DNA of 64,000 nt from Ruegeria spongiae (GTDB lineage: Bacteria > Pseudomonadota > Alphaproteobacteria > Rhodobacterales > Rhodobacteraceae): contig NZ_JAMFMB010000004.1 of the NCBI RefSeq assembly GCF_023502395.1, positions 124,001 through 188,000 on the forward strand, read 5' to 3'. The notes beneath the pieces are model-generated. The model was given only the letters and a program-made list of their open reading frames with translations, was not told where the DNA came from and did not search any database. Shown piece after piece: positions 49,601 through 52,163 of this stretch. Made by a program: the position numbers and the translations under genes. Position 1 is the first letter of the stretch. Each line of letters starts with the position of its first letter.

Positions 49601-50014
49601 TCACGGCAAGGCACGTTCCATCGCGATCGCATCGAGTTTCAGCCCGCCGTCGCGCAGGTAATAGGCACGCCGCACGCCGCACCGGGCATAGCCGCAGCGC
49701 TGATAGAGGGACAGCGCCGGTGTGTTGTCCTCAGCCACGTCCAGAAAGGCGCGCCGGGCGCCATTTGCAGCCGCCTCTTTCTGCCAAAGCTCCATGCAGC
49801 GCTGGGCAAGGCCTTGCCGCTGGAAGGCCGGATCGGTGGCGATAGCCAGCAATTCGGCCTGATCCGCGATCAGTGTGTAGACCGCGAAACACCGCGCATC
49901 GCCTGCCGTGTGGGTGAAGCGGTTCGTCAGCAGTGCTTCGAACTCTGCCGCCGACCATGGTCGCGATGCGGTAAAGGCGGCGGCATGGGTTTGGGCCATC
50001 TGCGCTGGTGTCAT
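49601..50014 (-). CDS. rimI: Ribosomal-protein-alanine N-acetyltransferase (GNAT)
   Basis: A 137-residue GNAT protein. The acetyl-CoA loop is DPAFQRQGLAQRCM (about 61-74), and DVAEDNTPALSLYQRCGY is the C-terminal block. RimI acetylates ribosomal protein S18 in E. coli; other N-terminal acetylations are possible. Its ATG overlaps the tsaB stop by 4 nt. Confidence 0.87.
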   Translation of the reverse strand: MTPAQMAQTHAAAFTASRPWSAAEFEALLTNRFTHTAGDARCFAVYTLIADQAELLAIATDPAFQRQGLAQRCMELWQKEAAANGARRAFLDVAEDNTPALSLYQRCGYARCGVRRAYYLRDGGLKLDAIAMERALP

Positions 50015-50583
50015 GCGTCCAGAATGACCGGCGGGGGGTCGCTGGCCGGGGCGGCATCTGCTGGGCGGGCATAGACCGGGGCAGGGGGCTGTGTCGCGCC
50101 AAGCCGGCGTTCGGCGGTGATCCGGGCAATGGCCTGAACGAGGTCCAGCGGGTCAATATCGGCATGAACGAGCCCGTCGACCTCGGATCGGGCGACCATG
50201 GTGATGCCCACCTCTGTTCGCAGGTAAAGCTGATCGCGCGGGGCAGGGACCGCGACCCGTTGACCGGGCGGTGCAGATAACGCGCGGGCATCAAAACCGT
50301 CCACGCCCACTGCCGGAATGCCAAGGCCCAGCGCCAGACCGCGCGCGGCTGACACTGTGATGCGGATGCCGGTGAAATTGCCCGGCCCGGTGCCAACGCC
50401 GATGGCATCCAGATCGCGCCAGGTGACCCCGGTCTGGCTCAGAGCCTCTTCGAGCAACGGCATCACCCGTTCGGCCTGCCCTTTGCTCATTGCCTCATGG
50501 CGCAGGGTCAACACCTGCCCATCACGCAGCAAGGCGGCGGCGCACCAAGGGCCGGACGTGTCGAAGCCAAGGATCAGGGTCAT
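50011..50583 (-). CDS. tsaB: tRNA threonylcarbamoyladenosine biosynthesis protein TsaB
   Basis: A 190-residue ASKHA-fold protein. LGFDTSGPWCAAAL is the N-terminal block and GVGTGPGNFTGIRI the phosphate loop. It scaffolds TsaD in making t6A37 of tRNA. TsaB proteins are shorter and degenerate in the C-terminal lobe, as here. Overlaps both the GFA gene and rimI by 4 nt. Confidence 0.95.
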   Translation of the reverse strand: MTLILGFDTSGPWCAAALLRDGQVLTLRHEAMSKGQAERVMPLLEEALSQTGVTWRDLDAIGVGTGPGNFTGIRITVSAARGLALGLGIPAVGVDGFDARALSAPPGQRVAVPAPRDQLYLRTEVGITMVARSEVDGLVHADIDPLDLVQAIARITAERRLGATQPPAPVYARPADAAPASDPPPVILDA

Positions 50584-51020
50584 CGGTCACGCGCGCTGTT
50601 CAGGGTATTCCGGCCAGAGCCTGTGGCGCGGTCCAACCCATCGGCAAGGTGCAGCCAACGCAGCCCTTTGTCGGCATGACAATGCAGGCGTGGAGGGAAA
50701 TCATCTGCCTGATCCAGCAGGCCGATGGGCACATAGATCTGATCGGGCAGATAATCGAATGTCGCCGCCAGAGGCGACCCGCAGCGGGTACAGTTCCAGC
50801 GCCGCACGCCCGGATGATGCGAGGCTCCGTCACCCAGCGCGGGCTCGCTCGTCAGATCGTTGCGACCGAAGGCGGCAAAGGCCCCCACCGGCGCGCCGGT
50901 CCAGCGGCGGCAATCGGCGCAATGGCAATAGGCCACCGTCAGGGGGGCGGCGGCGGCGGACAGACGTATCGCGCCGCAATAGCACCGCCCGGTCACGAAA
51001 ACGGCCGGGTCAGACGGCAA
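50580..51020 (-). CDS. GFA family protein (zinc, Mss4-like fold)
   Basis: A 146-residue protein. GRCYCGAIRL with CHCADCRRW and CTRCGSPL provides the paired cysteines for zinc, the GFA pattern. Members are often annotated as glutathione-dependent formaldehyde-activating, an activity that has been questioned. It overlaps the nfu gene by 11 nt and tsaB by 4 nt, so it is embedded in the operon. Confidence 0.88.
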   Translation of the reverse strand: MPSDPAVFVTGRCYCGAIRLSAAAAPLTVAYCHCADCRRWTGAPVGAFAAFGRNDLTSEPALGDGASHHPGVRRWNCTRCGSPLAATFDYLPDQIYVPIGLLDQADDFPPRLHCHADKGLRWLHLADGLDRATGSGRNTLNSARDR

Positions 51021-51573
51021 CCGGGCGCACCTCGGTCACTTCGGGGATATAGTGGCGCAGCAGGTTCTCGATGCCCATCTTCAGCGTCAGGGTCGAGGAC
51101 GGGCATCCGGCGCAGGCGCCCTGCATATGCAGATAGACAACCCCACGGTCAAAGCCGTGAAAGGTAATGTCGCCGCCATCCTGCGCCACCGCAGGACGCA
51201 CCCGGCTGTCGAGCAGTTCCTTGATCTGGTCGACCACTTCGGCATCTTCGCCGGTATGTTCGGCATGGCCGGACCCGGCCGTGTCGCCATCGTTGATGAC
51301 CGGCTGCCCCGACTGGAAATGCTCCATCACCGCGCCCAGAATGGCGGGTTTGATATGGTCCCATTCGACGCCATCACCCTTGGTGACGGTGACGAAATCA
51401 TTGCCCAGAAACACACCGGTCACACCGTCCACAGCAAAGATCCGGCCAGCCAGCGGAGATTTCCCAGCCGTGTCGGCAGAGGGGAAATCAGCGGTACCCA
51501 TGTCCAGCACAGTCTGTCCCGGCAGGAATTTCAGCGTTGCGGGGTTCGGGGTCGATTCGGTCTGGATGAACAT
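51010..51573 (-). CDS. NifU/NfuA-type iron-sulfur scaffold
   Basis: A 187-residue protein. The N-terminal Nfu domain (MFIQTESTPNPATLKFLPG) and a C-terminal NifU-like domain with GACAGCPSST, whose Cys pair carries a transient [4Fe-4S] cluster. It delivers clusters to client proteins. GGAG lies 8 nt ahead of ATG 51573. A perfect Irr/ICE-like box lies 59 bp upstream. First gene of nfu-gfa-tsaB-rimI. Confidence 0.93.
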   Translation of the reverse strand: MFIQTESTPNPATLKFLPGQTVLDMGTADFPSADTAGKSPLAGRIFAVDGVTGVFLGNDFVTVTKGDGVEWDHIKPAILGAVMEHFQSGQPVINDGDTAGSGHAEHTGEDAEVVDQIKELLDSRVRPAVAQDGGDITFHGFDRGVVYLHMQGACAGCPSSTLTLKMGIENLLRHYIPEVTEVRPVAV

Positions 51574-51631
51574 TCTGGGGTCTCCATGATCAGAGCAGCA
51601 GATATGCGACCCGTCCGGGCGCAAGTCAAGG

Positions 51632-51648
51632 TTTAGAACAATTCTAAA
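51632..51648 (-). promoter_or_regulatory. Perfect Irr/ICE-type box upstream of nfu
   Basis: TTTAGAA CAA TTCTAAA is a 7-bp perfect dyad with a 3-bp spacer, matching the iron control element TTTAGAA-N3-TTCTAAA described for Irr in alphaproteobacteria. It lies 59-75 bp before the nfu ATG. Confidence 0.75.
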
Positions 51649-51707
51649 TCGGGTGGGGGCGAGGTCAAGTCCTGCCACACCCGAAATTTACCGGGCGCAT
51701 CCGTGGA

Positions 51708-52163
51708 TCAGGTGATCGCCTCCAGCTTTTCCTTGCTCAGATCGCCGGGCACGATGGTGAACGGGATCGGCAGTGACCCCGATGAGCGGCTCATCTGCGT
51801 GACCAGCGGTCCGGGGCCTTTCTTGTCGGTCCCTGCACCCAGCACCAGCACCCCGATCTCGGGGTCTTCGTTCACCTGGGCGATGATCTCGGGCACGGCT
51901 TCGCCTTCGCGGATGATCAGTTCGGGTTCAACGGACTGCTTGTCGCGCATCCATTTGGCGAACACTTCGTAATGGGCGTGGATGCGCTCGCGCGCTTCTT
52001 CGCGCATCACTTCGCCCACGCCGATCCAGTGGTTGAATTCATCCGGCGGGATCACCGACAGGATGGCGACGCCGCCGCCCGTATGGGCCGCACGCATGGC
52101 CGCGAAACGCATGGCGTTCAGGCATTCGCGGCTGTCATCAAGGACGACCAGAAACTTCCGCAT
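51708..52163 (-). CDS. Universal stress protein (UspA family)
   Basis: A 151-residue UspA-fold protein. The N-terminal VVLDDSRECLNAM contains the conserved Asp. The C-terminal LVLGAGTDKKGPGPLVTQMS corresponds to the GXGX9G phosphate-binding loop, though spacing is somewhat changed. Single domain, soluble. It follows the ilvE-like gene on the same strand by 80 bp. Role in stress survival is inferred from the family. Confidence 0.88.
   Translation of the reverse strand: MRKFLVVLDDSRECLNAMRFAAMRAAHTGGGVAILSVIPPDEFNHWIGVGEVMREEARERIHAHYEVFAKWMRDKQSVEPELIIREGEAVPEIIAQVNEDPEIGVLVLGAGTDKKGPGPLVTQMSRSSGSLPIPFTIVPGDLSKEKLEAIT

Follow-up and report, generated by a model that had tools for sequence, protein, structure and literature searches.

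By its sequence, the palindrome at positions 51632-51648 of the window (i.e., the whole analysed stretch of 64,000 nucleotides of Ruegeria spongiae DNA) is the predicted site from which Irr would control the nfu-(gfa)-tsaB-rimI operon. For the reading that Irr would activate this operon from there in low iron, we estimate a probability of about 0.5.

Irr box and promoter of nfu

The site (TTTAGAACAATTCTAAA) has 0 mismatches to the Irr/ICE consensus TTTAGAANNNTTCTAAA, i.e., all 14 defined bases of TTTAGAA-N3-TTCTAAA are present. From the base composition, 1.7e-5 exact matches are expected for the window and 1.2e-3 for the genome of 4.59 Mb, in which the nfu box is the only one. The exact match upstream of nfu that the initial annotation had reported is thus confirmed. 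It had also placed nfu 59 bp from the box; the upstream placement holds, while the distance between box and ATG is 58 bp (nfu 51573-51010, minus strand). The following elements surround the start of nfu.

51632..51648, minus strand: Irr/ICE box (TTTAGAATTGTTCTAAA when read towards nfu), at roughly -54 to -38 relative to the predicted +1
51624..51629, minus strand: -35 element TTGACT, separated from the box by 2 bp, from the alignment of 107 family members
51601..51606, minus strand: -10 element CATATC, N17 from the -35 hexamer, with the same spacing in 105/107
51582..51585, minus strand: Shine-Dalgarno-like GGAG, from the sequence
51641..51668, minus strand: possible second promoter TTGACC-N16-TAGAAT with its -10 inside the box, in this genus only (G000, G001)

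When upstream regions are aligned at the box, TTGAC follows 2 bases behind it and CATATC another 17 bp further, and this promoter could be matched in 107 upstream regions out of 111 boxes. The gap between box and -35 is 2 bp in 89/107 and 1-4 bp in all 107/107 regions. Transcription of nfu is predicted to start at about 51594. The nfu box thus precedes the -35, such that both -35 and -10 are left free. That the box abuts a conserved nfu promoter is a new observation.

Conservation of the box

The initial annotation had suggested to compare the box in the nfu promoters of other roseobacters, and it is indeed present in close relatives. We sampled 112 Irr-positive Rhodobacteraceae, i.e., the best-ranked among the matches listed with close relatives over-represented. 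In 106/112 of them, a box with at most 4 mismatches precedes the nfu ATG by 69-86 bp. At most 2 mismatches are observed in 98/112 of these genomes and in 0.02% of shuffled upstream regions. Among named relatives (Phaeobacter, Leisingera, Ruegeria, Sulfitobacter, Roseovarius and others), 80/80 carry the box. A chance palindrome at 51632-51648, for which only the AT-rich spacing DNA speaks, is refuted by this conservation within the family and also conflicts with the low expected number of matches, such that we give this explanation next to no credence.

Genomes without a detected Irr show an nfu box in 5/21 cases (G112, G172, G164, G093, G232). These five are draft or incomplete, i.e., Irr may simply be absent from the assembly. 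Comparing 106/112 with 5/21 gives a Fisher p-value of 6.6e-12 with kinship ignored, and on these terms the sequence-based association of box and Irr is strong. Trees of nfu only and of four genes have too little support for a kinship correction of this association; well-supported branches yield only 2 independent pairs, mostly in the expected direction.

The conserved promoter TTGAC-N17-CATATC is often kept in box-less genomes with or without Irr (e.g., G024, G027, G017, G013, G031, G216), and eroded boxes are found in the same position in G192 and G220, for which no Irr was detected. The nfu box is thus a separable upstream module. Six genomes (G027, G017, G013, G030, G031, G216) encode Irr and show no nfu box, with the promoter kept in most of them.

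Outside the Rhodobacteraceae, no convincing nfu box was found in the Irr-positive genomes examined, and the box thus most likely arose within the family.

The probable nfu operon

The genes downstream of the box and the upstream neighbour are as follows.

51010..51573, minus strand: nfu, Fe-S cluster carrier/scaffold with Nfu_N and NifU domains and a CAGC motif
50580..51020, minus strand: gfa, GFA-domain protein
50011..50583, minus strand: tsaB, subunit of t6A synthesis (NCBIfam equivalog TIGR03725, 125.1 bits, cut-off 69.3)
49601..50014, minus strand: rimI-like GNAT acetyltransferase (best match TIGR01575 with 71.9 bits, below the cut-off of 86.4; named also from synteny)
51708..52163, minus strand: usp, universal stress protein, upstream neighbour with conserved synteny, not counted in the operon

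Consecutive genes overlap at their ends, i.e., nfu ends at 51010 with gfa starting at 51020, gfa ends at 50580 with tsaB starting at 50583, and tsaB ends at 50011 with rimI starting at 50014. Given these overlaps, nfu, gfa, tsaB and rimI very probably form one operon. The genes also share one strand and the order nfu-tsaB-rimI is conserved, which together with the overlaps backs the operon that the initial annotation had proposed. Terminator-like sites in the operon region are no more frequent than expected by chance.

The order usp-nfu-(gfa)-tsaB-rimI is near universal among the relatives. Between nfu and tsaB, gfa is an insertion found in 15/80 named relatives, in register and with overlapping ends. 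Other alphaproteobacteria show the order nfu-tsaB-rimI without the box, in several cases with mur downstream of it. Judging from gene order, the operon's tie to a metal regulator is old and mur is gone from the operon in Rhodobacteraceae. At five loci of other alphaproteobacteria (L075, L077, L080, L083, L087), a mur/fur gene comes after nfu-tsaB.

Irr and further boxes in the genome

The genome encodes three Fur-family proteins, namely Mur/Fur, Zur and Irr. The latter (L006:1396-1815) scores 203.5 bits for the Irr equivalog (cut-off 150), and we take an adjacent ORF, by eye, to be fabA. The Irr sequence carries the heme motif HPH (HXH) and no Cys-Pro (CP) motif, which is the type described for the Irr of R. 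sphaeroides, a heme-binding protein (PMC3413700).

Beside the nfu box, pattern searches of the genome revealed two further close matches, both in the isc-suf operon. Such searches miss boxes with several mismatches, e.g., that of mbfA, which is listed here as well.

L003:1501-1517 (G000 C1:258726-258742): Irr box ahead of iscR, in the region that separates this gene from a divergent hydrolase-like one
L002:1501-1517 (G000 C1:257462-257478): intragenic Irr box of iscS, which includes the 16-mer TTAGAAATATTCTAGA
L330 (G000 C54, near 26,900): Irr box of mbfA (3 mismatches), located 14-30 bp upstream of the ATG and behind a -10-like TACTAT

Over the 16 bases of its 16-mer, the iscS box is identical to the iscS site of R. 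sphaeroides, which is bound by Irr in vitro, while binding to iscR could not be shown in that species (PMC6956336). Either box is also found in many Irr-positive relatives, and neither occurs in the three Irr-less genomes examined. The iscS box uses the rare codons AGA and CTA (2/191 Arg and 3/169 Leu codons in ten neighbouring genes) and is kept with them in most Irr-positive relatives examined. This suggests selection on the DNA itself, i.e., on the iscS box as a DNA site. Given the iscR and iscS boxes, Fe-S assembly would be under the same regulator, Irr. The remaining matches to the core motif lie within reading frames and look like chance; L004 was rejected as an Irr site given two mismatches and no partner.

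Since the genome encodes further Fur-family as well as Rrf2-family proteins, another regulator, e.g., Mur/Fur or IscR, might use the nfu box. We consider this very improbable: many Irr-less genomes keep a Mur-like protein yet lack boxes, IscR is encoded in all three Irr-less genomes examined while the boxes are absent, and the motif is the ICE consensus rather than the Iron-Rhodo-box.

Activation or repression

We infer that Irr binds, with which sign it acts, that iron elicits a response, and that tsaB and rimI are co-transcribed. At low heme and iron, a heme-free Irr dimer would bind the palindrome immediately ahead of the -35 (about -54 to -38). Bound at that position, it would most likely increase transcription of the nfu operon, such that Fe-S delivery by Nfu is maintained. 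With plentiful heme, Irr would be off the site and the nfu promoter back to its basal level.

According to a review, Irr can work in both directions, with the location of the box deciding between activation and repression, and it commonly activates targets directly (PMC7762939). In this genome, the mbfA box is, by its sequence context, in repressor position, unlike the nfu box upstream of the -35. Repression at nfu is thus not supported by the geometry, and the different placement favors activation in low iron. The initial annotation had assumed that Irr represses the operon; with a box that lies off promoter and start site, and a regulator whose sign depends on position, this claim is not supported. 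NfuA is reportedly needed under iron starvation in E. coli (Angelini 2008), with which an activation of nfu would fit.

The main competing explanation keeps the same operator, but here Irr would get in the way of RNA polymerase at the -35 and thereby repress or damp the operon under iron scarcity. Within this genus, Irr would also cover the -10 of the possible second upstream promoter, which is in the box; this second promoter is, however, not seen outside the genus. Repression is also the view of the initial annotation, and damping is what R. sphaeroides shows: when irr is deleted, expression in low iron is slightly higher for both ccpA (PMC3413700) and iscS P3 (PMC6956336). Their geometry resembles that of nfu, and the observed damping thus counts against activation. 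The same holds for a possible Fur-type footprint, which, being wider than the 17-bp core, could touch the -35. On the other hand, neither -35 nor -10 is covered by the nfu box, in contrast to mbfA. Weighing both sides, we regard repression as a real but less probable option and lean somewhat towards activation in low iron.

Overall, Irr effects in R. sphaeroides are small (PMC3413700). This would also agree with an Irr that binds with little effect, i.e., with a weak or redundant box while IscR or OxyR set Fe-S assembly. Such a scenario is quite improbable for a box that is near-universal in the family and has fixed spacing.

tsaB, rimI and translation

If Irr directly activates the nfu operon in Rhodobacteraceae, TsaB and RimI would rise as well under iron limitation, such that iron would tune both the supply of tRNA t6A and the acetylation of S18. 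We consider this unlikely. The order nfu-tsaB-rimI is older than the box, and an iron response of tsaB and rimI may therefore be a by-product, i.e., the link from iron to translation may be passive. In the pattern search, intergenic core boxes are found only at nfu and iscR. The other t6A genes thus do not appear to be co-regulated, leaving tsaB alone, and we rejected a coordinated iron control of t6A genes. A link of Irr to translation genes should not be assumed.

Comparison with known Irr systems

For R. sphaeroides, the cited predicted Irr targets are mbfA, ccpA and, in one study, iscR (PMC3413700, PMC6956336). The literature we searched, to which Rodionov 2006 with a possible in silico prediction does not belong, contains no link of Irr to nfu, tsaB or rimI. 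From sequence, nfu is a solid new predicted target of a known regulator. It extends the set of Irr targets predicted for the Rhodobacteraceae, a family with few known direct targets in which Irr seemed to play a small part. This suggests Fe-S assembly (nfu, iscR-suf) as a conserved core of the Irr regulon in this family.

Among the known systems, ccpA of R. sphaeroides resembles nfu in that about 40 nt separate the start site from a box to which Irr bound in vitro (PMC3413700). It differs in encoding a cytochrome c peroxidase rather than an Fe-S gene, and in its slight damping. The iscS P3 promoter of the R. sphaeroides isc-suf operon resembles nfu as an Fe-S assembly target whose start follows the box at a distance of about 50 nt (PMC6956336), but it is an intragenic secondary promoter. 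Regulator and motif are also the same for mbfA, whereas the R. sphaeroides start site is located inside the box and Irr represses (PMC3413700). Finally, the ICE elements of Bradyrhizobium japonicum reportedly show the same motif with positive or negative control by Irr (Rudolph 2006), while they belong to other genes in another order.
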